From: an uncultured Eubacteriales bacterium
GTDB lineage: Bacteria > Bacillota > Clostridia > Oscillospirales > Acutalibacteraceae
DNA: 64,000 nt
Assembly: GCA_900314795.1 (NCBI GenBank)
Contig: OMWP01000002.1
Location: 29,478-93,477, forward strand
Reading direction: 5' to 3'
Positions 4,018-44,155 of this stretch are shown piece by piece (position 1 is the stretch's first letter; each line of letters opens with the position of its first letter). A program made the translations under genes and the position numbers. Under the pieces are notes generated by a model that had not been told where the DNA came from, ran no database searches, and saw nothing but the letters and a program-made list of their open reading frames with translations.

Positions 4018-4115
4018 AGTGTAAATGATTATTCAGTTGATTTAGTCAACATCATACATTTGACACGCCGTAAATGAAAGCATTGTTAAAACACGCTTTT
4101 CAAAAGGCGGACTCA

Positions 4116-4194
4116 GACGCACGCGTCACGCCGTTGATGGGGGAATTGATTTGATAAAACGTATCAATAGGCGGAACTATGACGCACGCGTCAC
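4116..4194. repeat. Pair of GACGCACGCGTCAC repeats
   Basis: The string GACGCACGCGTCAC occurs twice, about 64 bases apart, in the gap downstream of glgA. The second copy ends at the glgA stop codon. Each contains the palindrome GACGC..GCGTC. The role is unknown; they may be remnants of a dispersed repeat. Confidence 0.4.
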
Positions 4195-5618: not shown

Positions 5619-5650
5619 AATCTATATACCTCCTGATTTGATACTATTCT

Positions 5651-5836
5651 TTTGTCATTGCGAAGCTCGAAACAGGTGTGTTTCGGGCTGTGGCAATCCC
5701 CTTGTCATGAATACCGTTTTCAGAGGATTTCTTCTCCTCTTTGTGGGATTCCCACGGGGCTGAAGCCCCTCGGAATGACAAATAATATAAGGTTGAGATT
5801 GCCACAGCTCTTTGAGAGCCTCGCAATGACAATTCT
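5651..5836. repeat. Composite block of three palindromic repeats between glgD and glgA
   Basis: Three units stand back to back: TCATTGCGAAGC...GTGGCAATC (5653-5699), GGATTCCCACGGGGCTGAAG...GGAATGAC (about 5742-5780), and GATTGCCACAGCTC...GCGAGG-like CCTCGCAATGACA (5796-5831), the last being the first unit inverted. The whole block can form a large stem. Translated, it gives the meaningless LRGSQRAVAIS / FRGASAPWES-type peptides often mis-annotated as genes. It sits inside the glg transcript and may affect mRNA stability. Confidence 0.7.
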
Positions 5837-5837
5837 T

Positions 5838-6950
5838 TTATACGATGGATCGCTTTGCGATATACATCGGATAGTTCACGGTGCCCTGCAGCTTGGAGCC
5901 GCGGCTGACGTTGACGTCCTTATCGACGACCAGATTGATCAGCTGGGCTTTATCGCCGATGATGCAGTCCTGCATGATGATGCAGTTCTTGATGACAGCG
6001 TCGTGACCGATATAAACGCCCTTGGAGATGATGGAATTCTCGACGATACCGTTGATGACACAGCCCTGCGCGATCAGCGAATCCTTCACATTACAGTTCA
6101 GACCGTAGCGTGAGGGAGCGTCGTCGCGCACCTTGGTGTAGATCGGTTTCTTGTAGTCAAAGAGCTTGTAGCGGGTATCGCGATCCATGATCTTCATGTT
6201 CGCGTCATAGTATTCCTTGACGGAGCCGATGATCTCGCAGTAGCCCTCGAGCTCATACGCGTACACTCTGTGGCGGTCGAGGGACTTTTGCAGTACATCG
6301 CGGACAAAGCTGTATTTGGATTCACTCATCGCCTGGCGAACCAGCGCCATGAGAACGGTTTTCTTCATCAGCATGATGCCGATGTCGAGATTGCTGACGC
6401 TCTCGTCGATGGGGGACGCCATGATCTTGGTGACCTTGCCGTTTTCATCCACATCGAGCAGACAGCGGAAGTCATCGGTGATCTCCTTGACGACACGCTT
6501 GGTGTAGACAAAGGTGATGTCGGCATGGTTCTTCTCCGCAAAGCGGAGCACCTTGCTGTAGTCCATGTTGTGCACGCAGTCGGAGGGGGAGATCAGGATG
6601 TAATCCTCGTCACCGTGCTCAATGTAGCCGTGCAGGTTGAAGATGGTCTCGACTAAGGAAGCGAAGCTATGCTCGCCGTAAGGCGGCAGGATGCTCAGGC
6701 CGCTTCTGCGGCGGGCGAGATCCCATGCCGAGCCTGAGCCGACATGATCCATCAGGGACATAAAGTTGGATTTTGCAACGATACCGACATTGTTGATGCC
6801 GGAGTTGCTCATATTGGAAAGCGGAAAGTCGATCAGACGATACTTGCCGCCGAAAGGAACGGAGCCGGTGGTACGGTAAGCGGTCAACTCGGGCAGGTTC
6901 TTTTCATTTGTATTCGCAAAAATAAGACCTAATACTCTGTTGTTAGCCAT
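5838..6950 (-). CDS. glgD: Glucose-1-phosphate adenylyltransferase, GlgD subunit
   Basis: A 370-residue partner of GlgC in Firmicutes-type ADP-glucose pyrophosphorylase. It has the nucleotidyltransferase fold (FGGKYRLIDFPLSN) and a C-terminal left-handed beta-helix with hexapeptide-like repeats. It lacks the glycine-rich GGxGxRL nucleotide loop seen in GlgC, the N-terminus reading LGLIFANTNEKNLPELT instead. That is the known GlgD pattern: a catalytically weak or regulatory subunit that boosts GlgC. The start codon lies two bases from the glgC stop, so the two are co-translated. Confidence 0.95.
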   Translation of the reverse strand: MANNRVLGLIFANTNEKNLPELTAYRTTGSVPFGGKYRLIDFPLSNMSNSGINNVGIVAKSNFMSLMDHVGSGSAWDLARRRSGLSILPPYGEHSFASLVETIFNLHGYIEHGDEDYILISPSDCVHNMDYSKVLRFAEKNHADITFVYTKRVVKEITDDFRCLLDVDENGKVTKIMASPIDESVSNLDIGIMLMKKTVLMALVRQAMSESKYSFVRDVLQKSLDRHRVYAYELEGYCEIIGSVKEYYDANMKIMDRDTRYKLFDYKKPIYTKVRDDAPSRYGLNCNVKDSLIAQGCVINGIVENSIISKGVYIGHDAVIKNCIIMQDCIIGDKAQLINLVVDKDVNVSRGSKLQGTVNYPMYIAKRSIV

Positions 6951-6952
6951 GC

Positions 6953-8149
6953 TTACACCTCCATATCTTGATCGATCATTGCTTTGCAGGGCACAGTCAC
7001 GCCCTCACCGATCTTCAGACCGTCACCGATGACGGTGATGCCCCAGTCGTCACGGTTCTCCATCTCGGTGGGAGCCGCGCCGATCTTGGCGTTCCTGCCG
7101 ATGGTGGTATTCTCGGCAATGATGGAGAATTCCACGTGAGCGCCGTCCTCAATGACAACGCCGGGGAAGAGGATCGAGGAGTTGATCACTGCATCCTTGC
7201 CGATGATAACGCCGGGGAAGATGATGGAGAATTCCAGCTTGCCGTCGATATTGCAGCCGTCGGAGACCATGGAGTTCTGGATCTCACCGGTCTCGCCGAC
7301 ATGGTGCGGCGGCATCATCGGATTGCGGGAGTAGATGTTCTTTAGATCGAGCTGGACCTTGGGATCGAGCAGATCCATGTTTGCTTCCCAAAGACTGTCG
7401 ATGGTACCGACGTCTTTCCAGTAGCCTTCAAACGGATAGGCGACCATTTTCTCGCCGGAGTTCAGCATCAGCGGGAGCACATCCTTACCGAAGTCATTGT
7501 GAGAATCGGGATTCTGCGCGTCCTTGATCAGATATTCTCTGACGGTCTTCCATGTAAAGACGTAGATGCCCATGGAGGCATTGGTGCTCTTCGGATGTTC
7601 GGGCTTTTCTTCAAATTCATAGATCGAGTTGTCCTCGTTGGTGTTAAGGATGCCGAAACGGGACGCCTCTTCCATCGGTACATCCATCGCGGCGATGGTG
7701 CAGGCGGCGTTATGCTCCTTGTGGAATTCGATCATGGCGGCGTAATCCATTTTATAGATATGGTCGCCGGAGAGGACGACGATATAGTCGGGATCGTAGC
7801 GGTCTACGAAGCCGATGTTCTGATAAATCGCATTGGCGGTGCCGGAGTACCAGTCGGAGCCTTCCTTGGACTCATAGGGCTGTAAGCAGGTAACACCGGA
7901 GTGAATACCGTCCAGATCCCACGGCTGACCGTTACCGACATATTCGTTGAGTTCGAGCGGCTGATACTGGGTCAGAACGCCAACCGCCTCGATACCGGAG
8001 TTGATACAGTTCGACAGGGGGAAGTCGATGATTCTGTATTTGCCTCCGAAGGGAACAGCGGGCTTGGCGATCTTCTTGGTCAGAACGCCGAGGCGGGAGC
8101 CTTGGCCGCCTGCCAGCAGCATAGCCACAACTTCTTTTTTAGGTATCAT
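6953..8149 (-). CDS. glgC: Glucose-1-phosphate adenylyltransferase, catalytic subunit
   Basis: Makes ADP-glucose from ATP and glucose-1-phosphate, the committed step of glycogen synthesis. The protein has 398 residues. The nucleotide-binding loop [16 protein letters not shown] begins near residue 11. [15 protein letters not shown], the catalytic region [12 protein letters not shown] and the sugar-phosphate site [10 protein letters not shown] follow in the usual order, then a beta-helix C-terminal domain. The ribosome site is GGAGG before ATG. It lies between glgB and glgD, and its stop is two bases from the glgD start. Confidence 0.96.
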
Positions 8150-8211
8150 GTGTTTCCTCCAAATGTTCGGTCAATACCGCTGTCTATGCATGCGGTATCG
8201 CCTTCAGTGCT

Positions 8212-8235
8212 GAGCCCCGAATAAGCTCGGGGCTC
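8212..8235. terminator. Hairpin between glgB and glgC
   Basis: A 9-bp stem GAGCCCCGA / TCGGGGCTC with a six-base loop follows the glgB stop. There is no clear U-run, so it may be a processing or attenuation hairpin rather than a full terminator. A second, smaller stem (ATACCGC / GCGGTAT) lies at about 8175-8200. Confidence 0.5.
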
Positions 8236-8272
8236 AATGAATAATATCATAGGGCAGATGAATAATCAGGGA

Positions 8273-10399
8273 TTATTTGTCTGCTTTTTTCTTAGCGGGA
8301 GCTTTTTTTGCAGCAGGCTTCTTAGCGGCTGTTTTCTTAGCAGCGGGCTTTTTTGCTTCAGCCTTCTTCGCATCGGGTTTCGCATCCTTCTTTGCTTCGG
8401 CTTCCTTTGCGGCTTTCTTCGCGGCACGGGTAGCGGCAGCCTTCTTGGCGGCTTCCTTGCGCTTTGCAGCCTTTTTCTCCGCCTCGATCTCCTTGGGGCT
8501 CTTTTCCTTCTTGACACACTTGAGATACAGCGCGCTCATCGGGGGCAGGTTGAGGTAGATGGACTGATCAAAGCCGTGCATTTCTTCGGCTACGGTATGG
8601 ATATCGGTGCCGTTGGTCTTACCGGTACCGCCGTACTGCTCGTCATCGGAGTTGAATACCTCCGCGTATACGCCGTAATCCGGAACGCCGATACCGTAGT
8701 TCTCACGATACATGGGCTGGAAGTTGCAGACAACGATGATGTTGTTGCCTTCCTTGTCTATACGGCGGAACGCGATAACGCTCTGCTGATAGTCGTCGTG
8801 ATGAATCCAGTTGAAGCCCTCCCAGGTGAAGTCGACCTGATACATGCAGGGGTTCGCCTTGTAGAACTCGTTGAGCGCGCGGAAGAAGTCGTTGAGCTTC
8901 TTATGCTTTTCAAAGCCTAAGAGACCCCACTGCAGCTCCTCGGTGCTGTTCCACTCGTCGAACTGACCAATCTCAGCGCCCATAAAGGTGAGCTTCTTGC
9001 CGGGGTGAGCCATCATGTAGGACATGAATACGCGCACGCCCGCAAACTTCATATCATAGTCGCCGGGCATTTTATTGATCAGCGAGCCCTTGCCGTATAC
9101 GACCTCATCATGAGAGATCGGCAGCAGGAAGTTCTCGGAGAACGCATAAAGGAAGGAGAAGGTGATGGAGTTGTGATGATAAGGTCTCCACAGCGGATCG
9201 AGAGACATATAGGAGAGCATGTCGTTCATCCAGCCCATGTTCCACTTGTAGTCAAAGCCCAGACCGCCGTCGGATACGGGACGGGATACCATCGGCCAGG
9301 AAGTGGATTCCTCAGCGATCATCATAACGGTCGGATGATGCAGGTGAACAGCCGTGTTCAGTCTCTGGATGAACTCGACCGCCTCGAGATGTTCGTGACC
9401 GCCGTACTTGTTGGCGACCCATTCGCCGTCACGGCGGTTGTAGTCGAGGTACAGCATGGAGGCTACCGCGTCAACGCGGATGCCGTCTACATGGTACTTG
9501 TCCAGCCAGAACATTGCGGAGGATACGAGGAAGGAGATGACCTCGTAGCGCGCGTAGTCGAATACGTAGGTACCCCATTCCTTGTGCTCGCCCTTGCGGC
9601 TGTCCTCATACTCATAGCAGTGGATGCCGTCGAAGCGTGCCAGACCGTGAGCGTCCTTGGGGAAGTGAGCGGGTACCCAGTCGAGGATGACGCCGATGCC
9701 TTCCTGGTGGCACTTGTCGATGAAGTGCATGAACATGTCGGGGGAACCGTAGCGGGAGGTGGGAGCAAAGTAGCCGGTTACCTGATAGCCCCAGGAGCCG
9801 TCAAACGGATACTCTGTCATGGGCATGAACTCGATGTGGGTGTAGCCCATCTCCTTGACATAGGGGATCAGCTCGTCGGCGAGCTTGTTGTAATCAAAGG
9901 TGTTGCCGTCGGCATACTTGCGCCAGGAGCCCGCGTGAACCTCATAGATGTTGAGGGGGTTCTCAAAGTGATTGTGCTCCATCTTATACTTATACCAAGC
10001 CTCATCGTTCCACTGATACTTGTTATAATCGTAGATGATGGAAGCGTTGTCGGGGCGGGTCTGGGTATGGAACGCGAAGGGATCGGACTTGAGGATCTTC
10101 TCAAACCAGGGGGTCTCTACGCAATACTTATAGATCGCAGTTTCGCCGAGGTTCGGGATCCAAACCTCCCAAACACCGCCTTCGGAAATCTTGTGCATGT
10201 GGTTCGCCATTTGATCCCAGCCGTTAAAGTCGCCGACAACGGAAACGCTCAGGGCGTTGGGAGCCCATACGCGGAACATGGTTCCCTGTACGCCGTCGAT
10301 CCAAAAATCATGGGCGCCGAGGAAATCATAGATGCGTACCGCGTCACCGCCATGGAACAAATCAAGAGGCAATCTTTCGTCGTTTAAAACATAATTCAT
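8273..10399 (-). CDS. glgB: 1,4-alpha-glucan branching enzyme with Lys/Ala-rich tail
   Basis: Introduces alpha-1,6 branches into glycogen (GH13). The start is the ATG at 10397-10399, preceded by AAAGGAG; an open frame runs further upstream but is not conserved. It gives 708 residues. The N-terminal CBM48-like domain (MFRVWAPNALSVSVVGDFNGW) precedes the catalytic barrel: nucleophile Asp in GIRVDAVASMLYLDY, acid/base Glu in MMIAEESTSWP, and HDEVVYGKGSL. The last roughly 75 residues are a low-complexity KKAAAKK-type tail like histone H1 or HupB extensions, which branching enzymes normally lack. It is the first gene of the glgBCDA set. Confidence 0.95.
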   Translation of the reverse strand: MNYVLNDERLPLDLFHGGDAVRIYDFLGAHDFWIDGVQGTMFRVWAPNALSVSVVGDFNGWDQMANHMHKISEGGVWEVWIPNLGETAIYKYCVETPWFEKILKSDPFAFHTQTRPDNASIIYDYNKYQWNDEAWYKYKMEHNHFENPLNIYEVHAGSWRKYADGNTFDYNKLADELIPYVKEMGYTHIEFMPMTEYPFDGSWGYQVTGYFAPTSRYGSPDMFMHFIDKCHQEGIGVILDWVPAHFPKDAHGLARFDGIHCYEYEDSRKGEHKEWGTYVFDYARYEVISFLVSSAMFWLDKYHVDGIRVDAVASMLYLDYNRRDGEWVANKYGGHEHLEAVEFIQRLNTAVHLHHPTVMMIAEESTSWPMVSRPVSDGGLGFDYKWNMGWMNDMLSYMSLDPLWRPYHHNSITFSFLYAFSENFLLPISHDEVVYGKGSLINKMPGDYDMKFAGVRVFMSYMMAHPGKKLTFMGAEIGQFDEWNSTEELQWGLLGFEKHKKLNDFFRALNEFYKANPCMYQVDFTWEGFNWIHHDDYQQSVIAFRRIDKEGNNIIVVCNFQPMYRENYGIGVPDYGVYAEVFNSDDEQYGGTGKTNGTDIHTVAEEMHGFDQSIYLNLPPMSALYLKCVKKEKSPKEIEAEKKAAKRKEAAKKAAATRAAKKAAKEAEAKKDAKPDAKKAEAKKPAAKKTAAKKPAAKKAPAKKKADK

Positions 10400-11096
10400 A
10401 ATCTGACTCTCCTTTATAAAAAGAATTAGTACATAAATATACAACTCTATAATACCAGACCTTTTTGACAATTTCAAGTAAAAACGGAAATTAAACTCCA
10501 AAGATTTAGTGCAGTTTTTATAAAAATTGCCTATTCAGTTGGCATTATAGACAATGAATTTCAAATTATTTATTTAGGATGTACAAATCAGAGGCGCTGA
10601 TTCGACGATAATAAAGGAAGCAATATAGATAGCATGACCTGATCGTTGATAGAGTGAAAAGAATGATTAGACCGAGGATCAAACTGTTATGCCGAAAAGA
10701 TGTAAGCCATACTTTGCGAACCTGATCGGGTTTATTTTTCTTTTATCTCAATTACCACTTGACATTTGAGGGGGGTTATATTATTATAGATCATGGTATG
10801 ATATTAGTATAAGTATAACTGATATTATGCCCTGAACCCGTTTTGCGGTTCATCCCTTTTTTATTAGACTCTCTTAGAGAGCCGTTATATATAGATATTT
10901 TACCCTATTACCATTTTACCCGCGTTATGCTTTGACATATATTTCATATTATTAAAAGTGACATTATATTAAAAGTGACATTTGCGGAACTCTTATTTAT
11001 CTGTCTTTGACAGTGGTGATACAAAACTGAATATCTGAGTAACGGCACCGTGAGTTGAGTTTGATTAGGAAGAATCAAATCAAGGAGGTGTCATGT
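10400..11096. other. Gene-free divergent region between glgB and rny
   Basis: About 700 bases with no credible coding frame. It holds the glgB and rny leaders. Visible items are: TTGACA at 10759-10764 with ATTATA 18 bases later; two weak hairpins followed by T-runs (AACC..GGTT at 10719-10732, GAACC..GGTTC at 10834-10851); the imperfect stem CTCTC-TTA-GAGAG near 10868; and a perfect 15-base direct repeat ATTAAAAGTGACATT at 10951-10965 and 10968-10982. One or two small RNAs could be encoded here, but I recognise none. Confidence 0.5.
10951..10982. repeat. Tandem 15-base direct repeat upstream of rny
   Basis: ATTAAAAGTGACATT occurs twice with a 17-base period, about 115 bases before the rny start codon. 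Such head-to-tail spacing is unlike a hairpin and could be a binding site for a dimeric regulator. Confidence 0.55.
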
Positions 11097-12647
11097 ATGA
11101 CTGTTTTAGGCATCATCCTCATAGTAGTCGCTCTGATCCTCGGCCTCGGTATCGGCGCCGTCATCGGTAACGCATACCGTAAGAAGGTCGCGGAGGCGGA
11201 GATCGGCAGTGCGGAGCAGGAAGCGAAGCGCATCGTCACCGACGCTATGAAGACTGCCGAAGCAAAGAAAAAGGAAGCTGTCCTTGAAGGTAAGGATGAG
11301 ATCCATCGCCTCAGAAATGAGAACGATAAGGAGATCGCCGACCGACGCAAGGAGGTACAGCGCCAGGAGCGCCGTATCCAGCAAAAGGAAGAGACTCTTG
11401 ACCGAAAGATCGACAATGTCGAGAAGAAGGAAGAAAGAGTAAACAAAAAAATCAAAGAAGCCGAGGGTCGACTCGCCGAGGCGGAAACAATCAAAAAGAG
11501 TCAGTTTGAAATGCTCGAGAGGATCTCGGGCTACACCGTAGATCAGGCGAAGGCGTATCTGCTCGATCAGCTCGAGGGCGAGCTGGGCAGAGAGAAATCG
11601 CTCAAGATCTTGGAGTATGAGCAGCAGCTCAAGGATGAATCCGACAAGCGTGCCCGCAATATCATCTCCCTCGCGATCCAGCGCTGTGCTGCCGATCAGG
11701 TTGCAGAGGCGACCGTATCGGTTGTCGCACTGCCGAATGACGAGATGAAGGGTCGTATCATCGGACGTGAGGGCCGCAATATCCGCGCCATCGAAACGAT
11801 GACCGGTTGTGACCTGATCATCGACGATACGCCCGAGGCAATCACCTTATCCTGCTTTGAGCCTGTTCGCCGCGAGATCGCTCGCGTCGCGCTTGAAAAG
11901 CTCATCTCCGACGGCCGTATCCATCCCGCGAGAGTCGAGGAAATGGTCGAGAAGGCGCGCCGAGAGGTGGAAGCCAGCATCAAGCAGGCAGGTGAACGCG
12001 CGGTGCTCGACGCCGGCGTACACGGACTGCACCCCGAGCTCGTAAAGATCCTCGGTCGTCTGAAATACCGTACCAGCTACGGTCAGAACGTGTTGATGCA
12101 TTCCCTCGAGGTTTGTTATATCTCCGGCATGATCGCCTCTGAGCTCGGTCTTGATCCGACCGTGAGCAAGAGAGCCGGTCTGCTGCATGATATCGGTAAG
12201 GCGCTCGACCACGAGATCGAAGGCAGCCACGTCGAGATCGGCGTTGACATCGCCCGCAAGTACAAGGAGAGCGACGCGGTCATCCACGCGATCCAGGCTC
12301 ACCACGGCGATGTTGAGGCAAAGACCGTTGTCGCATGTATCGTACAGGCGGCTGACGCGATCTCCGCAGCTCGTCCCGGCGCACGCCGTGAGAATCTGGA
12401 GAACTACATCAAGCGTCTGCAGAAGCTCGAAGAGGTCGCGTCCTCCTTTAAGGGTGTCGAAACCTCTTACGCGATCCAGGCAGGCCGTGAGATCCGTATC
12501 ATGGTCAAGCCTGAGCAGGTCAAGGATGACGCAATGCCCGCTCTTGCAAGAGATATCTGTAAGAAGATCGAAGATGAACTCGAGTATCCGGGTCAGATCA
12601 AGGTCAACATCATCCGCGAATCCCGCGCTGTCGGCTTCGCAAAATAA
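11097..12647 (+). CDS. rny: Ribonuclease Y
   Basis: A membrane-anchored endoribonuclease that starts mRNA decay in Firmicutes. The start is the ATG at 11097 with GGAGGTG eight bases upstream, giving 516 residues. An N-terminal membrane helix ([20 protein letters not shown]) is followed by a long charged coiled coil to about residue 190. The KH domain reads [15 protein letters not shown], and the HD domain has [12 protein letters not shown] and [13 protein letters not shown], with the catalytic His-Asp intact. It stands alone and ends in a strong terminator. Confidence 0.97.
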
Positions 12648-12746
12648 GCAACAAGCTGTTGCATCCGATCCCGCCTTTTGTAAGGTTACGGTTTATCCGA
12701 ACTGCATCAACGGCGGTTGGAAAAAGACCTATTTAACACAATTAGA

Positions 12747-12773
12747 AAAGCACTGCTTCGGCAGTGCTTTTTT
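12747..12773 (+). terminator. Rho-independent terminator after rny
   Basis: Stem AAAGCACTGC / GCAGTGCTTT with a TTCG loop and a T-run. Confidence 0.9.
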
Positions 12774-12858
12774 AGTTGAAAATGTAAAATGGAAAGTGGA
12801 AAGTGAATGGCGGACTCTGCCCGCACCCAATTAATTTTCAATTTTCAATTTTCAATTG

Positions 12859-13725
12859 TCAATTGCCGTAATTCCACTCGGGTACATACTTTTGATCCGA
12901 CGCATCCAGCTCCTGCGCGAAGCCGTCTAGGTCAAGCTCTATATATTTGTTCAATACTTTGTTATATTCTCGCTTGGTCAGTTTACGATTGATGTCGGGA
13001 TAGTCTGCCGCTTTACCTGCGGGCATATACTGTGCCATCAAACTCACAAGCGCGCTTGTGCCGTATCTTTCTTTGATGCTCTCTAATACGCCGATACTGT
13101 TTTTGGTGTGAGAGGGGAGGACGAGGTGACGGATGATCACGCCTTTCTTGATCACACCGTTCTCAATGATGATCTCAGGCTGTTGGCGCAGCATTTCATC
13201 GATCGCCGCCGTCGCTGTCTCGACATAATCGCCGCAGTGTGAGAGCCGTTTTGCCAACTCGTTGTCGCTGTATTTGAAGTCGGGCAGATAGATATCGATC
13301 ACGCCTTCCAGCCGCTTTAAGGTTTCGATACTGTCATATCCCGAGCTGTTCCAGATCAGCGGCAGCCGTGGCTGATAGTATGTCAGGCTTTCCAAGATCG
13401 CGTTGACGTAGTGCGACGGAGTGACGAATTCGATATTCTGTGCGCCCATTGCTTCGAGCTTTCGGTATTCCTCACTCAGTTGATAGGGTGTGATGACGAC
13501 CCCTTGGTGCTCTTCGGAGATATCGTAGTTCTGGCAGAATACACATCGCAGGTTACATCCGCTGAAAAAGATCGTCCCCGCGCCGCGTGTACCGCTGATG
13601 GGCGGTTCTTCATCAAAATGCAGCGCTGCACGCGCGATCTTCGGCAGCTCTCCGACGCCGCAGAATCCGAATCTTTTTTCCGTGCGTTCCGTATGGCATT
13701 TTCTCGGACATTGATTGCATTTCAT
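12859..13725 (-). CDS. Radical SAM protein, PflX/COG1313-like
   Basis: A 288-residue radical-SAM enzyme of the pyruvate-formate-lyase-activase-like PflX group. The N-terminus has additional cysteines (CNQCPRKC, FGFCGVG). The SAM-binding iron-sulfur cluster motif is GCNLRCVFCQNYDIS near residue 55. The substrate is unknown in this family; despite the name, a role in activating PFL is not established. Most PflX proteins have this length and cysteine arrangement. No PFL gene is nearby. Confidence 0.88.
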   Translation of the reverse strand: MKCNQCPRKCHTERTEKRFGFCGVGELPKIARAALHFDEEPPISGTRGAGTIFFSGCNLRCVFCQNYDISEEHQGVVITPYQLSEEYRKLEAMGAQNIEFVTPSHYVNAILESLTYYQPRLPLIWNSSGYDSIETLKRLEGVIDIYLPDFKYSDNELAKRLSHCGDYVETATAAIDEMLRQQPEIIIENGVIKKGVIIRHLVLPSHTKNSIGVLESIKERYGTSALVSLMAQYMPAGKAADYPDINRKLTKREYNKVLNKYIELDLDGFAQELDASDQKYVPEWNYGN

Positions 13726-13787
13726 GATAACACATCCTTAGCACGATTGTATCATAATCTGCGCTGAAATGCTATACGTATACAATA

Positions 13788-14018
13788 TTATAATGTAAAA
13801 TCGTACAAAAAGTTTTCTACCGTTTCCTCGAGGTGAGCGGGGGAGAGATACTCTTCGTTACAGAGCTTCACCAATTGCTCGACCTTATTCTTTTCAAGCG
13901 AGATGTCTTCGATGGTACAGACGATATTGCCGCAGCGGGATGCGGTGATGCCGTATGTTTCATAGGTTCCGTATTCGTTGCTGTGCGCCTGTCCCGTTAG
14001 TAGATCGTAATGGATCAC
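13788..14018 (-). CDS. DUF6514-like small protein, GTG start
   Basis: A short protein of about 76 residues resembling the clostridial DUF6514 family (YGITASRCGN followed by a charged helix ending NFLYDFTL). The frame stays open upstream, but an AAGGAGG ribosome site lies just before the GTG at 14016-14018, which begins VIHYDLLTG. I therefore prefer this GTG start; the longer translation begins with unconserved residues. The function is unknown. Confidence 0.65.
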   Translation of the reverse strand: MIHYDLLTGQAHSNEYGTYETYGITASRCGNIVCTIEDISLEKNKVEQLVKLCNEEYLSPAHLEETVENFLYDFTL

Positions 14019-14339
14019 AAAGCGCCTCCTTGGTGAAATAAATTCACATCGCAGTGTGATTGTATCACTGATCTTTTGACTTTGCAAGGATTTCAACAAA
14101 AGTGTAAATATCGTTACAGCAATCGACACGGATTGCGAGTTTTTGTAACCTTCGATCGCGGTTTCTCGACATTTTCAATTACGAACAGACGCTTGAAAAG
14201 CCGGATATAGTATGGTATTCTATTACTGTTATGATAGCGGGTTCCGTCCATACCCGTGACGATCGGGGGGAGCAGCTTCCTTTGTACAACAGCAGGGATG
14301 GTTACCTGAACAACAGTGAACAGATTGGAGTGAGAGCAG
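14019..14339. other. Intergenic region upstream of the ROK-like gene
   Basis: About 320 bases without a gene, between two divergent genes. A plausible plus-strand promoter lies at 14193-14221. Nothing else stands out. Confidence 0.5.
14193..14221 (+). promoter_or_regulatory. Candidate promoter of the ROK-like gene
   Basis: -35 TTGAAA (14193-14198), a 17-base spacer and -10 TATTCT (14216-14221). An alternative -10, TATGAT, lies at 14230-14235. Confidence 0.45.
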
Positions 14340-15431
14340 ATGAAAAACCCGTTTTTGTCCGTATCGGATAAAGATCAAACCGAATATCTGACCTCGCGAT
14401 GTTCACTCAACCGTGCCGTGCTGAAGAAATTACCCTTGTACGGCATTGAAGATGAGATTGAAGGAATGTCATTCAAGGACATTTTTTCAACACCCACGAT
14501 CGTCAAAGAGATCAGGCGTGTGTCGCATCGCTACGGGATCGATCTGAGTGACCAACCCGATTATATCTTGCCGCAGCTCTTGAATGAAGCGATTGAGGCC
14601 GACAACCCGAGATATCGACAGTTTGCAGCTCGTGTGGTCAAACAGTTCGGCAATCGGCTCGGCTTGTTGCTGTTGACCCTCAAAAAAGGGGAGAGGGAGA
14701 ACCGTTTGGCGCGTGACGACTGGGATGATGCCTGTTGGGAATATTGGCGATCGCTCAAGACCGTTATTCTCACCGGCGGACTGGCGAGCTCCATGTTGGG
14801 TAGGCGCTTCAAGGAAGACATCCAGACGATTTTTGATATGGCGGGCGAAAAGCCGTATTACATCATGCTCTTTGATAACGGCACCTACGTCGGCGTGATG
14901 GGTCTGGCACAAAAGCTGATGAAGGATGATATGACGTCGCTGGTGTTGGATATGGGTCATACGGGGATAAAGCGAGCCGTCGTCAAAAAACGCGGCGGCG
15001 AGATCGCGGAATTCAGCGCACAAGAGAGCCTGCCTTCTTTGCACATGAAAAGCCATTTTGACAATGATGATGAGAAGCGGCGTGAAGCGATCGAGCTGCA
15101 TCGTTATATCGTCAACACGATCGCCTCCTCCTTCCGTGCCGCGTCAGATCCCGCAGCGTTGGATGATACGATCCTGATCAGCCTCGCGAACTATACTCAT
15201 AACGGCATGCTGAACGGCGAGCGGGGCGGTTACGCAAAGCTCTGTACCATCAACGCGGATTATGCCGCCGTGTTGGAGGATGACCTCTCCGGAGAGCTGC
15301 ACCGTGATATCAAAGTCAGACTGGTGCATGACAGCACCGCGTCGGCGTCGTACTTTGCAGATATTGATCGTTCGGTTTGTATCACTCTCGGTACCGGCTT
15401 CGGTGTAGGATTCACCGATATTAATATATAA
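14340..15431 (+). CDS. ROK/ASKHA-like protein with apparently permuted motif order
   Basis: A 363-residue protein with sugar-kinase (ROK, actin-like ATPase) signatures in an unusual order. Residues about 75-200 look like the C-terminal half of a ROK protein: helices with EAIEADNPRYRQFAARVV, then TVILTGGLASSMLGRRF and YVGVMGLAQKL. The N-terminal half follows: LVLDMGHTGIKRAVVKKRGG (phosphate-1 loop, near 203), then VRLVHDSTASASYF and SVCITLGTGFGVGF at the very end. In normal ROK proteins these come first. No HTH or zinc-binding CxCGxxGC segment is seen. It is a single gene with its own promoter and terminator. Kinase, sensor and non-catalytic roles are all possible. Confidence 0.6.
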   Translation: MKNPFLSVSDKDQTEYLTSRCSLNRAVLKKLPLYGIEDEIEGMSFKDIFSTPTIVKEIRRVSHRYGIDLSDQPDYILPQLLNEAIEADNPRYRQFAARVVKQFGNRLGLLLLTLKKGERENRLARDDWDDACWEYWRSLKTVILTGGLASSMLGRRFKEDIQTIFDMAGEKPYYIMLFDNGTYVGVMGLAQKLMKDDMTSLVLDMGHTGIKRAVVKKRGGEIAEFSAQESLPSLHMKSHFDNDDEKRREAIELHRYIVNTIASSFRAASDPAALDDTILISLANYTHNGMLNGERGGYAKLCTINADYAAVLEDDLSGELHRDIKVRLVHDSTASASYFADIDRSVCITLGTGFGVGFTDINI

Positions 15432-15452
15432 TAGTCTCATATAAATAGGAAG

Positions 15453-15480
15453 AGGTGTTCTGATTCGGAACACCTTTTTT
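15453..15480 (+). terminator. Rho-independent terminator after the ROK-like gene
   Basis: Stem AGGTGTTC / GAACACCT followed by TTTTTT. Confidence 0.88.
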
Positions 15481-15648
15481 CTTTTTTAGAATAAAACGCT
15501 AACCAATCCTTTCTGTCGAAAACAGTATTACAGTATTTTTGTGCAAATAGAAGCCTGCTTTGTCATTATCAACAAAAATCGGACAAAAAGATTGTGCAAA
15601 ACATCGTCACTAAAAATTTGCTTTTGCATTTATTTATTTTTGTTGTTA

Positions 15649-15657
15649 TGCTATAAT
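15649..15657 (+). promoter_or_regulatory. Extended -10 promoter of the pullulanase gene
   Basis: TGCTATAAT: a perfect TATAAT (15652-15657) with an extended TGn element and only a weak -35. It lies about 74 bases before the start codon, which has a GAAGGAGAGG ribosome site. Confidence 0.65.
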
Positions 15658-15730
15658 GGTGGTAACTGGATTAGTATGTGTTGTTGCATACTGATTCACA
15701 GTACGTATTCTTTATGAAGGAGAGGATTAC

Positions 15731-18700
15731 ATGAAAATTCGTAGGATTATCTCCATAGCGCTGGCTGTACTGATGCTGATGTCAGTATTCACCGTAGCGG
15801 CTTCTGCCGCTGAGGCGGATCTGTCCGGCACCGGTTATTCCAACCAGAGTTATCTCGAGAACTACGCCAAAGAGGCAGCTAAGGTTACCGATCTGGGTGC
15901 AACCTATACGCCGACCGCCACTACCTTTAAGGTATGGGCTCCCGAAGCTACCTCTGTGATGGTAAAAATGTTTACCACCGGTACCGACGCTGAGTCAGGC
16001 GCTGCCGTTCTCGGCACCTCCGCTATGACCTATAACAGCACCACCGGTATCTGGTCGCTTACTAAGTCCGGCGACCTCAAGAACACCTATTACACCTATC
16101 TCGTCACCCGCAACGGCGTTGTCAGCGAGACTGTCGACCCGTATGCAAAGGGCGTCGGCGCGAACGGCGACCGTTCCATGGTCGTTGACCTCGACTCCAC
16201 CGACCCTGCCGGCTGGGATCAGGACAACCATGTACTGTTCAACAACCCCGGCGAAGCAGTCGTATGGGAAGTTCACGTTCGTGATTTCTCGATCGACGTT
16301 TCCTCCGGCGTCAGTGAGGCGAACCGCGGTAAGTACCTCGCGTTCACCGAGGGTAATACTTCCGTCAACGGCGAGGGCAAGATCGCTTCCTGTGTTGACT
16401 ATCTCGTAGAGCACAACGTCAACTGCGTACAGCTCATGCCCGTCGAGGACTTCGCTTCCATCGACGAGACCGATAACCAGATCAAGTGCAACTGGGGTTA
16501 TGATCCCAAGAACTACAACGTTCCCGAAGGCTCTTACTCCTCCGATCCCTACGACGGCAACACCCGTATCAAGGAATTCAAGATGCTGGTTCAGGCGCTG
16601 CATGACCGCGGTATCTCCGTTGTTATGGACGTTGTTTACAACCATACCTTCGTTCGTGAGGGCTCTCCGTTCTCCAAGACTGTTCCGAAATACTTCTATC
16701 GTATGTCCAACATGGCAGGCAACACCTACCACAACGGTTCGGGTCTGGGCAACGTTCTCTCTACCGAGAAGGCGATGACTCGTCAGTACATTCAGGATTC
16801 TCTGCTTTACTGGGTCAACGAGTATCATATCGACGGCTTCCGTTTTGACCTGATGGGCTGCTTTGACACTGCCTCCGTCAAAGAATGGCGTTCCGCTATT
16901 GACAAGGTCGATCCCCGTATCCTCATGTACGGTGAGCCTTGGGCAGGCGGCTCCGACAATGGTATCAGCAACGCTGTCGGTAAATCCAACATCGCTTCTC
17001 TGACCAGAGTCGGCGGCTTCAACGAGGGCTACTCCGACGCATTAAAGGGCAGCCACGAGACCGCTACCGGTACAGGCTTCCTCAACGGCGGCGCTGCTAC
17101 CGAGGTTCTGAAGGCTGCCGGCGGTACTGCTTCTGACTTCCCCGGTGCGAAGCCCGAGCAGATGATCCAGTACACCGATAACCATGATAACTTCACGCTC
17201 TTCGACAAGATCTTAGCCGCGAACAGGACCTCCGGCTTCAAGACCGCGAAGGACGATCCCACCCTGTATAACACCAACAAGAATATCGTTGAGACCACCG
17301 ACGCGAAGGTGCTCGGTCAGGTCAAGATCGCTCTGACCTCTTCACTGACCGCTCAGGGTATTCCGTTCACCGTTGCGGGTACTGAATTCTGCCGCACCAA
17401 GTACGGCGATCAGAACTCCTACCGTTCACCTGACAACATGAACGCCATCAACTGGACCCGCGCTTCTAAGTATAAAGACGTTGCTGACTACTATGTAGGT
17501 CTTGTCGCGATCCGTAAGGCTGTTTCCGCTTTCGGCGACACCAGCGCGAACGCCGTTTCCACCATCTCCGGCTGCACTGCTTGGCAGATCACCAACAACA
17601 AGTCCGGCGAGTGGAACAAGGTCATCGTCGCGCTGAACAACTCCGCTTCCGCGAAGTCCATCAGCCTTTCCGGTTCATGGAACGTCGTCGCTAACGGCAC
17701 TAAGGCAGGCACCGCTTCTCTGGGCACCGCTTCCGGTTCCTACAGCGTTCCCGCATGGAGCGGCGTCGTCCTCGTTGACTCCGCGTCTTTCGGCAACTAC
17801 ACCCAGCCCGCTGTCGGCTCTGCTAACCTGACCGTTGAGCATTATACCCGTGATTCCGCTACCGGTTCTTACAGCAAGGCTAAGACCGAAAAGTTCGAGT
17901 ATAAAGAGGGTCAGACCTGGCGTGCTTCTCAGGATCTGTCGATCCTGTTCGACCATACCCTGACTACCACCGAGTCCACCGCTACCGGTAATGCTACTTC
18001 CGGCAAGGCGACCGCAGGTCAGAACATCACCGTTAAGTTCTATTACACCAGAGAGATCGGCTCCGCTTACCTGACTGTCAACTTCCTCGACGCTATTACC
18101 AACGCACAGGTCAAGGCTCCGATGAAGTATCGCCTGAAGGACGGCGATCCGTTCTCTGTTCCTGCTACACGCGTACAGGGCTATCAGCTCGACACCTCCA
18201 GAGTTCCCAAGAACACTGTCGACAAGTTCAACTCTGCATCCCCGGCTACCTTCAACTTCTACTACAACAAGCTGTCCAACACCACTACCAAGGTGCATTA
18301 TTACAACGCAAAGGGCTGGCAGTGGGTCAACTGCTACGCTTATGACGATCAGGGCAACGAGCCTCTCGGCGCTTGGGCTAACCAGGGTAAGAGAGATAAG
18401 TCCAAGATGAACGACGATCCCGATGAGTCCGATTCCAAGTGGCTTGTCGTTACCGTTCCTTCCTCTGCTTGCTACGTCATGTTCCACAACACCAACGCGA
18501 ACGCTCAGGTTCCCGATCAGGGCGAGCCCGGCTACGAAGTTGCAGGCGAGGCTTGGATCAAGGATAACGTCACCAGCTTCAACTGCTCTATCGTTACCTC
18601 TCACATCGACCTTGAGACCGGCGAGAAGGTTTCTCCCGACGTCACCAAGTCCTTCACCAACGTTCGTTCCAACCAGACCTACACCACCACTCCCGACACT

Positions 18701-39652: not shown

Positions 39653-41062
39653 ATGTACCGTAAAAACGAAATCATCGAACTGAATATTACCTCGTTGACC
39701 TCCGACGGCGACGGCGTCGGCAGGGCAGGGGAGATGGTCTTTTTCGTCCCGAATACCGCTGTCGGCGATACCATCCGCGCCAAGGTGCTCAAGGTGAAGA
39801 AGAACGTCGGCTTTGCGCGTGTGGAGGAGATCGTCACACCGTCTCCCGACCGCATCGAGGCGGATTGTCCCGTGTCGTTTTCCTGCGGCGGATGCGTCTA
39901 TCGCCATATCTCCTATGAGGCGGAGTGTCGCGCCAAGCGGCAGAAGGTCATCGACGCCGTGACGCGGATCGGCAAGTTGGATGGCGAACTTGTCCGTGAT
40001 ATTATTCCTTCAAAGAATATTGACGGCTACCGCAACAAGGCGATGATCCCCGTCGGACGCAACCGTGACGGCGAGGTCGTGATGGGCTACTACGCCCGCC
40101 ACAGTCACCATATCATGCACTGTCTGCGCTGTCAGCTTTCGCCGCCGATCTTCAACGATATCATCGAGGATGTGTACGCGTTCCTGCGCCATCGTCCCGC
40201 GCTGGTATACACGCCGCAGAATCGCCGCGGCATCCGTCATATCTATCTGCGTTATGCCGAAACGACAGGCGATGTGATGTTTTGTATCGTGGCGGGCAGC
40301 AGGCATTTTGACGGTGAAGATGTGCTTTATCATTCTATAAAAGAAAAATACCCGCAGGTGAAAAGCATCATCGTCAACGTGAATGCCGAAGATACCAACG
40401 TCATCCTCGGCAAGCATTCCCATACCGTTTATGGCGAGAAATTCATCACCGATACCCTCTGCGGTCTGCGCTTTGAGATCGCGCCCGAGGCGTTTTATCA
40501 GATCAACCGCACCCAGGCAGAAACGCTCTACGCCAAGGCGAAGGAATACGCGCATCTCAGCGGCGGTGAGACCTTGATCGACCTCTACTGCGGCGCCGGT
40601 ACGATCGGGCTGAGCATGGCGGACAAATGTAAAGAGCTGATCGGTGTGGAGATCATCCCCGAAGCGATCGAAAACGCCAAACGCAATGCGCTGCAAAACG
40701 GCGTTCATAACGCACGCTTCTTCTGCGGTGACGCGACTTCCGCCGCGGCAAAGCTGCGCTTGGAGGATGTTGCTCCCGACGTGATCGTAGTCGATCCGCC
40801 GCGCAAGGGGCTCACCCCCGAGCTGATAGACACCATCGTGCAGATGTCGCCCGACAGAGTTGTCTACGTCAGCTGTGACCCCGCCACCATGGCACGCGAT
40901 CTCAAACTGTTCACCGAGCAGAATTATTCCGTAAAAGAAATAACACCTGTTGATATGTTCCCCCGAACCTCACACGTTGAGTCGGTAGTTATGATGTCAA
41001 AAGTCAGATCGAGGTTTAATAAGAAATCTAAATTAATTGTCAACTTGTGTTACTATTGTTGA
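39653..41062 (+). CDS. 23S rRNA (uracil-5-)-methyltransferase, RlmD/RumA family
   Basis: 469 residues. An N-terminal TRAM domain (NITSLTSDGDGVGRAG) is followed by an iron-sulfur cluster motif (CPVSFSCGGCVYRHI), the SAM-binding LIDLYCGAGTIGLSMA, VVDPPRKGLTPEL and the catalytic Cys in VYVSCDPATMARDL. It methylates uridine C5 in rRNA; whether it targets U1939 or U747 cannot be told. The start is the ATG at 39653; the longer frame runs through a repeat. The last 18 or so residues (after VVMMSKV) are AT-rich and unlike the usual end, probably altered by the adjoining island. Confidence 0.92.
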   Translation: MYRKNEIIELNITSLTSDGDGVGRAGEMVFFVPNTAVGDTIRAKVLKVKKNVGFARVEEIVTPSPDRIEADCPVSFSCGGCVYRHISYEAECRAKRQKVIDAVTRIGKLDGELVRDIIPSKNIDGYRNKAMIPVGRNRDGEVVMGYYARHSHHIMHCLRCQLSPPIFNDIIEDVYAFLRHRPALVYTPQNRRGIRHIYLRYAETTGDVMFCIVAGSRHFDGEDVLYHSIKEKYPQVKSIIVNVNAEDTNVILGKHSHTVYGEKFITDTLCGLRFEIAPEAFYQINRTQAETLYAKAKEYAHLSGGETLIDLYCGAGTIGLSMADKCKELIGVEIIPEAIENAKRNALQNGVHNARFFCGDATSAAAKLRLEDVAPDVIVVDPPRKGLTPELIDTIVQMSPDRVVYVSCDPATMARDLKLFTEQNYSVKEITPVDMFPRTSHVESVVMMSKVRSRFNKKSKLIVNLCYYC

Positions 41063-41106
41063 ACTAATGTGTTCACGTTTTTGTATTGGAAATTATGTGG
41101 TGAAAT

Positions 41107-43122
41107 ATGGCAAAAAGGAAAACAAACGAAGAATTCTTGAATGAATTACAGATTGCAAATATTCCAATTACTCCTTTAGAAACGTATACCAACAATAACA
41201 CCAAGATACGTGTAAAGTGCAACATATGCGGTTATCAATGGTATGTTTTGCCTAGAACGATACTTAGTAATCATGGATGCCCAAAATGTATGGGGCGTGT
41301 TAAGATGACTACGTATGAGTTTAGTAAAGCAATGAGCGAAATTAATCCTGATATCGTTGTACTTGGAGAGTATTCTGGGAGTAGTAACAGGATTTATGTT
41401 AAATGTAAAAAATGTGGGTATGAATGGGCTCCCATTGCAAATAGCATAAAAACTGGTGGTGTTGGTTGTCCTAATTGTGCAGGCAATAAGGCATTAACAA
41501 ACGAACAATTCCTTAAAAGAGTTAAGGAATTGTCTCCTTCTATAATAATTAAAAGCAAATACAATAATTCAAAATCATTAATCGAATGCGAATGCTTGAA
41601 ATGTGGATATGAGTGGAAAACAAAAGCAAGTTCGCTTATGTTAGGATATGGATGTGCAAATTGTGCTGGAAACATTCGAAAGGATAAGGAAAAGTTTATT
41701 GAAGACTTAAAAAAGGTACTACCTACAATTAGAGTTATCGGTGATTACAAAAATGCTATTACTAAGATACATGTAAAGTGTAGTATATGTGGATACGAAT
41801 GGACTGCAAAACCAAACAATCTATTAAGCAAAGAAGGCTGCCCAAATTGTGCTAATAGATTACGAACATTAAAGCGAACTAAAACAGAAGAAGATTTTAT
41901 TAGTCAAGTTTCAAAAAAGAATCCAAATATTGAAATAGTAGGAAAATACATTAATTCACATACTAAGGTGAAGTGCATCTGCAAGATTTGTGGGAATATT
42001 TGGAATCCATTGGCATGGGACTTGATTCAAGGAACTGGTTGTCCTAGTTGTGCAAAGACATCGACATCATACATGGAACAGATAATACTTTATTCTATGT
42101 GTTTTGTTCTTGGTAAAGATGCTGTTCTTTCTAGAGACAAAAAAGCTATAGGAATGGAACTCGATGTATATATTCCTGAGAAAAGATTTGCAATTGAAGC
42201 TGGCTCATGGTATTGGCATGCTAATAGAATTAATAATGATTTAGAAAAACAGGAAAAATGTCGAGAAGTTGGCATTAGGCTAATAATAATTTATGATTCA
42301 TGTAAGACACAAACTATTCCTTTTTTTGATGATTGTTTAGTTTTTGATTTTGATATTGGAGCAGAAGATAATCATCCTACTCTAAAGATAATAGTTGAAG
42401 ATTTACTCGATCAAATGAGTCATCCCCATTCTTTCACTACTACTGAATGGAGTGAAATAGAGAATACTGCATATTTGAAATCTCGTAAGATAACAACTGA
42501 TGATTTCAAACAAAAACTATCTATCATCAACGATGGCATAGAAGTATTAGGCAACTATAAAGGATCACGAATAAAAATAGCTTGTAAATGCAAAAAGTGT
42601 GGATATGAATGGTCAGCGACGCCAAGTCATTTGCTCAATGGCAGAAGTTGTCCTATGTGTTATGGCAAAAAGAGAAAGACTACTTTAGAGTTTAAAGAAG
42701 AATTATTCAAAGTGAATCCCAATATTACACTGTTAAGTAGTGAATACAAGAATAGTAGAACCAAAATATTGGTGAGTTGCAAAATTTGCGGACACATTTG
42801 GAATGCGCGCCCTGCAAATTTATTAAGTGGATACGGATGTCCTGAGTGCTCAAAAAGAAAAGTTGCAAAAAAGAAATGTCTAACGCAAGAACAGTTTCAA
42901 AATAGAATGAAGAAAAAAGGAGATCCGAACGTAGTTGTATTAGGAAAATACGTGAATTCGAAGACTAAAGTTGATTGCATTTGTAAAATATGTGGTTATG
43001 AATGGAGCACTACACCAAGTTCATTACTGCAAGGTCATGGCTGTAAAAAATGTGCTGATAAAGCGACAGGAAAAGCAGTGAGTGAGCGAAAAATGAATGA
43101 AGAAAAGGAGAAAGAATGTTAG
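41107..43122 (+). CDS. Vsr-like nuclease embedded in eight zinc-ribbon repeats
   Basis: 671 residues. Five copies of a ~65-residue unit (F..E...NP.I.VLG.Y..S.TKI.VKC..CGYEW......L..G.GCP.C) precede residue 318, and three more follow after about 425. Each unit has paired CxxC motifs such as CNICGYQW..GCPKC. The middle (about 319-415) is a PD-(D/E)xK/Vsr-like nuclease: MELDVYIPEKRFAIEAGSWY (Asp353, Glu364), His371, and downstream EKCREVGIRLIIIYD. Related repeats occur in phage and mobile-element proteins. The gene is clearly AT-rich against its neighbours. Its stop overlaps the next gene by seven bases. It is likely a DNA-targeting endonuclease; its biological role is unknown. Confidence 0.8.
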   Translation: MAKRKTNEEFLNELQIANIPITPLETYTNNNTKIRVKCNICGYQWYVLPRTILSNHGCPKCMGRVKMTTYEFSKAMSEINPDIVVLGEYSGSSNRIYVKCKKCGYEWAPIANSIKTGGVGCPNCAGNKALTNEQFLKRVKELSPSIIIKSKYNNSKSLIECECLKCGYEWKTKASSLMLGYGCANCAGNIRKDKEKFIEDLKKVLPTIRVIGDYKNAITKIHVKCSICGYEWTAKPNNLLSKEGCPNCANRLRTLKRTKTEEDFISQVSKKNPNIEIVGKYINSHTKVKCICKICGNIWNPLAWDLIQGTGCPSCAKTSTSYMEQIILYSMCFVLGKDAVLSRDKKAIGMELDVYIPEKRFAIEAGSWYWHANRINNDLEKQEKCREVGIRLIIIYDSCKTQTIPFFDDCLVFDFDIGAEDNHPTLKIIVEDLLDQMSHPHSFTTTEWSEIENTAYLKSRKITTDDFKQKLSIINDGIEVLGNYKGSRIKIACKCKKCGYEWSATPSHLLNGRSCPMCYGKKRKTTLEFKEELFKVNPNITLLSSEYKNSRTKILVSCKICGHIWNARPANLLSGYGCPECSKRKVAKKKCLTQEQFQNRMKKKGDPNVVVLGKYVNSKTKVDCICKICGYEWSTTPSSLLQGHGCKKCADKATGKAVSERKMNEEKEKEC

Positions 43123-43955
43123 ATATTACTACCCCTACTACTCAAAAGTGGAAACTAGACCAACTCGATAAGACTGTAGATGATTTTGAGAAAAGAGTGG
43201 CTGATAAAGTAACGGAAAAACAAATTCCGTGTGAAAAGGATTATATAAATATTCTTCTGTCAGTCACAGGGAAGTGTATAGTACTTATGAGAGAAATAAT
43301 TACACTTTCTGCACAAGGCTTTCCGGATGGTGCTTTATGTTTAGCAAGAAGCTTATATGAACAGGTAATTGTATTTGGCTTCTTGGATTCAAAATCTAAC
43401 GATCCGGCTTTTCAAGACTACGTAGATGACTATTATCTGGATTACGATTATCAGTCTTATAAATATCTCAAAGCTGAAAATGATTACTTTCCACTTAAGC
43501 CAGATGATCTCAAAAAGTTAAATCAAGAATATGATAGAATTAAAGCGCAGGCACATCGCGGGACACCAAAAAGAGACTATTGGTGGACAGGTATAAATTC
43601 ACTTGATCAAATAATAAAAGCGATTCCTTCTATTGCTGATCCCGTAATGTCAAGAATGCTTAATTTGCTTCATTTAGATTACAAAAGAGCTTGCTTATCA
43701 ATTCATTCAAACAGCTTCGGTAATTCAATTCGTTTAGGAATAAATGATCCGAGTAATGTGATTGATAATTCTCCCACTCTAAATGGTCATGGTTTGCCAC
43801 TTTCATTATCAACGGTTTCCTTTATTTTTATAGTTGCCAAAACCTGTGAAGCTTTAGATATTGATTATTTTGGTTTGTATAAAGATGATCTTAATCATAT
43901 AGCAGCATTTTATAGAGATAAACAGTGTACCGAAAGTGAGATGGGCTACTGTTGA
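43116..43955 (+). CDS. DUF5677-like protein
   Basis: A 279-residue, largely helical soluble protein resembling the DUF5677 family (ALCLARSLYEQVIVFGFLDS, DYKRACLSIHSNSFG and a C-terminal VAKTCEALDIDYFG). The function of that family is unknown; members often occur in defence or mobile contexts (recalled, not checked). It begins seven bases before the nuclease gene stop, with AAGGAG inside that gene, so the two are translationally coupled and AT-rich together. Confidence 0.7.
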   Translation: MLDITTPTTQKWKLDQLDKTVDDFEKRVADKVTEKQIPCEKDYINILLSVTGKCIVLMREIITLSAQGFPDGALCLARSLYEQVIVFGFLDSKSNDPAFQDYVDDYYLDYDYQSYKYLKAENDYFPLKPDDLKKLNQEYDRIKAQAHRGTPKRDYWWTGINSLDQIIKAIPSIADPVMSRMLNLLHLDYKRACLSIHSNSFGNSIRLGINDPSNVIDNSPTLNGHGLPLSLSTVSFIFIVAKTCEALDIDYFGLYKDDLNHIAAFYRDKQCTESEMGYC

Positions 43956-43980
43956 GATAGTGTTAAATGCCATATTCCCT

Positions 43981-44028
43981 GTCGACCTTACTCCACGCAC
44001 CGGTAAATGTGGTAGACCTTACTCCACG
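43981..44028. repeat. Two 17-base direct repeats at the right edge of the island
   Basis: GTCGACCTTACTCCACG (43981-43997) and GTAGACCTTACTCCACG (44012-44028) differ at one base and have a 31-base period. They lie just past the DUF5677-like stop. They could mark an insertion edge; two units are too few to call a CRISPR array. Confidence 0.5.
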
Positions 44029-44155
44029 ACGCACTGGCAGGGGATAGGCGACATCATTTTCGTTGCTACGACCCATATTGAAAATGTGTGTTTTCTGATA
44101 CGAGTTTAAGAATAAGCATTTACTTAGAAATACGAGTTAAATGAAGTATATAAGA

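Follow-up and report, generated by a model that had tools for sequence, protein, structure and literature searches.

The window, by which we refer to the whole 64,000-nucleotide stretch of DNA that was analysed, harbors a pair of overlapping genes behind rlmD, and the features relevant to this locus are the following:

39653-41062, plus strand: rlmD (rumA), encoding the 23S rRNA m5U1939 methyltransferase, an attachment-type gene ahead of the island (TIGR00479, E 1.1e-128)
40973-41005, plus strand: near (left) att-like copy, the rlmD-end core coding HVESVVMMSK, recognized from the sequence
41107-43122, plus strand: gene 1, a CapR-array and EDxHD/Vsr-type nuclease gene (671 aa, zinc units 5+3)
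42061-42351, plus strand: nuclease core, residues 319-415 of the gene 1 protein (E324, E351, D353, E364, H371)
43116-43955, plus strand: gene 2, a DUF5677 gene (279 aa, PF18928, E 6.3e-17)
43984-44046, plus strand: two units of 31 bp that begin GACCTTACTCCACG and belong to a repeat common to the rlmD-downstream regions of genus relatives
44074-44109, plus strand: far (right) att-like copy, rlmD-end-like, coding HIENVCFLIRV and a stop, recognized by motif and by alignment with the repeat in genomes G034, G036, G082, G081, G004 and G057

The coordinates, reading frames and overlap of the gene pair had been given exactly in the first-pass annotation, with the start of gene 2 (43116) preceding the stop of gene 1 (43122) such that seven bases overlap. 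The AT-richness of both genes noted there was also borne out, with GC fractions of 0.338 and 0.342 for genes 1 and 2, respectively, vs 0.493 for the whole window. Between rlmD and the far rlmD-end-like copy, gene 1 and gene 2 are the only genes, an integrase or transfer gene being absent.

In the gene 1 protein, Pfam detected eight CapR stretches (PF21817, E 1.7e-42), eight DUF4379 stretches (E 6e-41) and a single DUF723 stretch. CxxCG..W motifs start at residues 38, 100, 163, 225 and 292 ahead of the core and at residues 495, 558 and 626 behind it, which agrees with the Pfam stretches and with the initial description of eight zinc units arranged as 5+3 around a Vsr-like core; in register, these units are 19-43% identical. 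The same description had regarded a nuclease inside the array as an unusual layout, which proved not to be so: zinc units flank the core on both sides in 18 of 29 ORFs, the window included, according to a motif count that misses divergent units (it catches four of the window's first five) and in which rows L015 and L104 represent the same locus. The numbers of units before and after the core vary among relatives (e.g., 7+1, 4+3, 3+5 and 0+6).

With regard to the nuclease core, the AlphaFold model (mean pLDDT 82, pTM 0.76) retrieved the Vsr endonuclease at Foldseek PDB ranks 1 and 2 (1cw0 and 1vsr, probability 0.99 each) and the catalytic domain of I-Bth0305I at rank 6 (probability 0.87), none of the matches having an E-value below 0.001 (best 0.025). 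Since all Foldseek E-values exceed 0.001, the kinship of the core is derived from residues, fold rank and families taken together. An alignment of the window with five close relatives placed E324, D353, E364, H371 and D378 among the invariant positions, and in 26 diverse aligned rows E324, E351, D353, E364 and H371 were invariant, while D378, the last D of the EDxHD motif, varied. The Vsr-like core within a zinc-unit array proposed in the earlier reading is therefore upheld by the top Foldseek ranks, weak as their E-values are, and by the invariant active-site residues; this invariance in 26 relatives also suggests that the enzyme, i.e., cutting, is under selection.

Among PHROGs, gene 1 corresponds to phrog_559 ('HNH endonuclease', 607 positions, E 4.6e-137). 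Relatives of the whole protein, with the zinc units counted in, were present in 988 of 50,697 phage records and in 71 of 72,556 plasmid records; the core alone matched 114 of the 50,697 phage records, with many among the matches listed being annotated as homing endonucleases, and a core search of viral contigs yielded 24 loci. The close core clade was found in 5 of 391 class genomes, and a phylum search with core profile A3 (E 1e-12) gave 2 of 279 genomes, both corresponding to previously known loci. The kinship with phage homing proteins suspected from the outset is supported by phrog_559, by the core matches in phage records and by the eightfold CapR/DUF4379 units. Homing endonucleases with CapR arrays have been described from phages (PMC12350094 and PMC10448857, excerpts), and CapR/DUF4379/DUF723-like units followed by an EDxHD/Vsr-like domain were presented in 2025 as a large unrecognized outgroup of homing endonucleases (PMC12350094, excerpt). 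By the features that can be tested from sequence and model, gene 1 belongs to this CapR and EDxHD/Vsr homing-endonuclease lineage.

The rlmD attachment site is a feature that was not noticed in the first reading of the sequence. The TIGR00479 match in rlmD stops near the HVESVVMMSK stretch, the blastn alignment of rlmD with genus relatives stops at about window position 41002, and the last ~20 rlmD codons look replaced. At the other end, 3´ of gene 2, a repeat of ~100 bp terminates in the rlmD-end-like HIENVCFLIRV stretch, this far copy being diverged from the near one. The pair is absent in G012 and G043, the two closest relatives by rlmD, in which the four downstream genes are conserved (78-96% identity) and the place of the pair is taken by a host-like gene of 1184-1185 aa, together with a further 374-aa gene in G043. 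Related repeats lie downstream of rlmD in G034, G036, G082 and G081, and on a contig without rlmD in G004 and G057. A looser pattern of the 31-bp unit was found in 7 of 90 genus genomes, its own included, with the G081 match being weak and on another contig. Serial small genes occur behind rlmD in G034 (L041/L070) and G036 (L045/L074), between repeats with rlmD-end-like sequences and 31-bp GACCTTACTCCAAG units. Integron-like cassettes at rlmD were also considered and rejected: the repeat had a folding z-score of -0.20, with 74 of 200 shuffles folding at least as well (one sequence, one fold). A serine-integrase route accounts for the rlmD-end copies better than integron cassettes do, and the integron reading was therefore dropped.

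Such a route is documented by streptococcal rumA elements, for which rumA is the serine-integrase site, att lies inside the integrase gene and the 3´ ends are exchanged (PMC4701971, excerpt), and cis-mobilizable elements (CIMEs) and tandem accretion have likewise been described (PMC5704250, excerpt). Within the taxonomic order of the window, locus L174 (genome G141) contains ~13.5 kb between rlmD and a large serine recombinase, whose C-terminus carries a VETVVLLSK stretch and an HVET-linked domain of ~100 aa, as fused to rlmD in many order genomes. No Pfam family above the cut-off was assigned to this domain behind the HVET motif (L001:7641-7991, L076:1268-1570, L174-L188). The domain from L001 had matches in 20 of 147 genomes of the order, and in 9 of the 10 loci listed in full it is either a short ORF by itself or the C-terminal part of an ORF for rlmD or a recombinase. 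Also encoded in the L174 interval between rlmD and the rumA-type serine recombinase (about 4100-17500) are a helicase of the ResIII type and a protein of the Mrr_cat/STAND type, both resembling defence cargo. Because the L174 layout matches the rumA-element design and rlmD-end copies are present, the stretch from about 41000 to 44110 is read as a compact accessory insert of about 3.1 kb at the rlmD 3´-end attachment region. Unlike a rumA-type ICE/IME, the island has no integrase gene of its own, and its two rlmD-end copies are diverged, so that the insert may be a CIME or belong to another class.

These same observations also lend themselves to an explanation that we consider possible, if somewhat unlikely, according to which the pair would be the remnant of a rumA-using serine-integrase element (CIME), with a nuclease that was captured from phage homing endonucleases and has neither mobility nor function of its own here. 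The use of rumA by serine integrases, with att in the integrase gene and exchange of 3´ ends (PMC4701971, excerpt), the existence of CIMEs and their tandem accretion (PMC5704250, excerpt), the rumA-type element in L174 of the same order, and the other small genes between rlmD-end copies in genus relatives are all consistent with inert cargo of this kind, as is the adjoining of nuclease genes and integrases in L105, L008 and L108. In L108, the nuclease gene lies 117 bases after a Tn916-type integrase, and in L008, 27 bases after a serine recombinase other than that of L105. The L105 nuclease gene begins some 65 bases downstream of a serine recombinase that has LETVVMLKKYQ at its end and is 55% identical to the L174 recombinase, and that of L001 begins 9 bases past an ORF whose own start is near HVETCVLL; judging from these sequences, both genes look like they lie just behind rlmD-type att sequences.

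We also monitored the vicinity of RNA genes. A tRNA or tmRNA 3´ end faced the nuclease gene within 600 bp in 10 of 32 cases (ARAGORN and one Rfam tmRNA), compared to 1 of 292 control-locus genes (Fisher p 2e-10) and 0 of 115 genes lying far from it in the same loci (Fisher p 7e-8), although the size of this enrichment is uncertain because the control loci are RNA-gene-poor (2 in 505 kb), and hence understate the background, and because the 32 cases are not all independent. The other 22 nuclease genes had no facing RNA gene within this distance, with some of them being located at contig ends. The 32-gene set excludes L006, L013, L019, L020 and L021 (no core ORF), L017 (a fragment at a contig end), L104 (the same locus as L015), the second L173 ORF and the short loci L023-L037 that duplicate larger ones; L004 was scored as a miss, its partner gene lying between the nuclease gene and the tRNA. 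The excluded L021 match is 378 bp from a facing tRNA-Ser. Thus delimited, nuclease relatives recur at tRNA and tmRNA sites and probably at rlmD-type integration sites. A comparison of the 600-bp flanks of 31 loci revealed no ends common to the elements; short matches aside, flank similarity comprised tRNA/tmRNA sequence, the tmRNA-site flanks of L102 and L107, and the close pair L008/L016. As separate observations, two tandem CapR-Vsr genes adjoin tRNA-Leu in L173 (5244-10337), an AbiP2-like reverse transcriptase (PADLOC E 6.9e-187) is encoded directly upstream of the CapR-Vsr nuclease gene in L010 (941-2446), and an HEPN is found near the nuclease locus in L015.

Several of these inserts contain little besides the nuclease. 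In L003, 47 bp of the tRNA-Val 3´ end recur without a mismatch some 277 bp past the nuclease gene and thereby delimit a 2.94-kb island, in which no further ORF of at least 100 aa is listed. At the tmRNA site in the window's genus, the nuclease gene is present in two species (L102 and L107), while the site is empty in two others (L193 and L204), which share the same downstream flank (84-93% identical in blocks) about 240-285 bp after the tmRNA, with one rearranged block in L204 vs L102. No significant copy of the RNA end was detected behind the nuclease gene in the L102 and L107 inserts. On the reverse strand of L107, at about 7560-7760, a second partial tmRNA 3´ end is located ~195 bp behind the tmRNA and before the nuclease gene, and might be the trace of a previous insertion that was later lost. 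Across the 12 RNA-gene loci, the RNA-end repeat reached a nominal p of at most 0.033 in L003, L021, L098 and L172 (60 shuffles each), and in the other eight it was not significant. The L003 and tmRNA inserts, with the nuclease as the sole sizeable gene, would be odd products of random decay, and both this and the active-site residues invariant in 26 rows, which suggest selection on the enzyme, argue against the inert-cargo explanation.

The partner gene is far less widespread. At E 1e-5, DUF5677 relatives were present in 3 of 148 related genomes, the window's own included, and at 1e-8 the own genome was the only one of 391 class genomes to contain one; none were detected in plasmid records at 1e-5 or in the search of viral contigs. 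No DUF5677 gene lies beside the other nuclease loci compared (L001-L037, L169-L173), nor is there a nuclease core within the stretch covered at the two other DUF5677 loci, one of which is on a contig of only 3 kb. Some nuclease genes have other close neighbors elsewhere: in L100 an ApeA-like HEPN gene with an overlap of 26 bp, in L098 a DUF2513 gene that follows after 30 bp, in L105 an unassigned gene for a 255-aa protein with an overlap of 14 bp, and in L004 an upstream DUF4238 gene. Since DUF5677 is absent at other nuclease loci and other neighbors are found there, the partner is regarded as exchangeable or accidental. The first-pass annotation had taken the coupling as a sign of one two-gene system and had named failure of homologues to co-occur as the outcome that would speak against it; nuclease and DUF5677 co-occur only at the window locus among the loci compared, so that this sample lends no support to a joint system of the two genes, and a conserved operon was rejected. 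The structure model of the gene 2 protein was poor (mean pLDDT 59) and had no Foldseek PDB match at E up to 0.001. An R-X5-H motif is present in the window protein, with only its His being common to the three DUF5677 proteins aligned, and a HEPN toxin or RNase was therefore rejected for gene 2, given that the Arg of R-X4-6-H is not conserved, the model is poor and a PDB match is absent.

These data bear on a further explanation, namely a dedicated two-gene anti-phage defence in which the array would recognize invader DNA, the nuclease would cut it and DUF5677 would signal or kill. The operon-like overlap, the toxin- or defence-like neighbors in some relatives (the ApeA-like HEPN in L100, the AbiP2-like reverse transcriptase in L010 and the HEPN near L015) and the occurrence of Vsr nucleases in HEPN-containing and YprA-type defence proteins (PMC3710099 and PMC12458937, excerpts) are in line with it. 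Nevertheless, the partner is not conserved, PADLOC families gave no match up to E 1 for either protein, the HEPN-type Arg differs among the three DUF5677 proteins, and no modification gene able to shield host DNA is encoded inside the island, all of which make such a system unlikely. The island is more reminiscent of a small piece of mobile DNA, be it selfish or competing, than of a dedicated immune system.

Starting from what was directly observed, i.e., the position of the pair, its absence in the two closest relatives, the far rlmD-end-like sequence, the nuclease family and the recurrence of relatives at tRNA, tmRNA and probably rlmD-type sites, we favor, with roughly an even chance of being right, a nuclease of the homing type that persists at integration hotspots as a compact gene, either mobile or competitive. 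A selfish element had been one option of the first reading, and this option is supported. Gene 1 would then encode an active metal-dependent endonuclease, whose CapR array would recognize an extended DNA site to either side of the cut. The nuclease would break DNA that lacks the island, or the DNA of a competing element, and, by analogy with free-standing phage homing endonucleases, this breakage would favor copying and keeping of the island. Relatives would travel as one-gene inserts or on integrative elements, with gene 2 as a putative, optional co-expressed passenger. Counting against this homing or competition reading are the 22 of 32 nuclease genes without a facing RNA gene, the 8 of 12 RNA-gene loci without a significant repeat, the lack of common ends in the flanks searched, the divergence of the window's far copy from the near one and the understated background of the RNA-gene-poor control loci. 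Furthermore, proteins 75% (L098, L102) and 65-66% (L172) identical are located at tRNA-Pro, tmRNA and tRNA-Ser, which disfavors a fixed homing target unless the RNA genes share it. Either the array reads a common feature of these sites, all of which would have a tRNA-like T arm, or different integrases carry the genes, or the target lies elsewhere.

A DNA-binding regulator was weighed as well, that is, a protein whose main role would be to bind DNA and thereby repress a competing element's genes, with cutting being secondary. There is precedent in the CapR of the V. cholerae PLE satellite, a repressor derived from homing-endonuclease DNA-binding domains (PMC10448857, excerpt), but the catalytic residues are invariant across 26 relatives, as if cutting were selected, and this makes a mere regulator very unlikely. 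Extending the homing or competition reading, CapR-Vsr genes might constitute, on chromosomes, a class of autonomous homing elements of one or two genes at attachment sites, whose arrays would read attachment-region DNA and whose nucleases would cut uninterrupted sites or incoming elements with the same att, thereby both spreading and guarding the site against rival phages and integrative elements; we hold this broader proposal to be quite unlikely as it stands.

A form recurring on chromosomes at rlmD, tRNA and tmRNA sites, in some cases with an island to itself, would link homing nucleases with attachment-site competition and would supply natural nucleases in which the DNA code of modular zinc arrays could be deciphered. 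It would also be a warning that single-gene islands without an integrase need not be mere decay products.

In comparison with known systems, the island resembles rumA serine-integrase elements and CIMEs with regard to insertion at rumA (rlmD), the altered rlmD end and tandem inserts in relatives, and it differs from them in that it lacks integrase and transfer genes and has two rlmD-end copies that diverge from each other (PMC4701971 and PMC5704250, excerpts). T5orf172 homing endonucleases and the PLE CapR share with gene 1 a CapR zinc-finger DNA-binding domain, often repeated, whereas the nuclease of the former is T5orf172 and the latter acts as a repressor (PMC10448857, excerpt). The EDxHD homing endonuclease I-Bth0305I resembles gene 1 in core fold, judging from the Foldseek rank (probability 0.87), and as a multi-domain protein with a long target; CapR arrays were not found in its description (PMC3943268, excerpt), and the activity of gene 1 is predicted. 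Among the titles and abstract beginnings listed in searches of open-licence literature, none described CapR-Vsr genes at chromosomal attachment sites. The closest counterparts are the phage-intron CapR and EDxHD/Vsr homing endonucleases, which, like gene 1, combine several CapR/DUF4379/DUF723-like units of ~60 aa with an EDxHD/Vsr-like nuclease domain (PMC12350094, excerpt). According to the same excerpt, these enzymes have three to five units and a C-terminal nuclease and reside within phage group II introns, in contrast to gene 1, with its 5+3 units around the core, its location on a bacterial chromosome at rlmD and its partner gene. The protein is a new member of the lineage described in 2025, the novelty lying in its occurrence on chromosomes at attachment sites, also in the form of single-gene islands.
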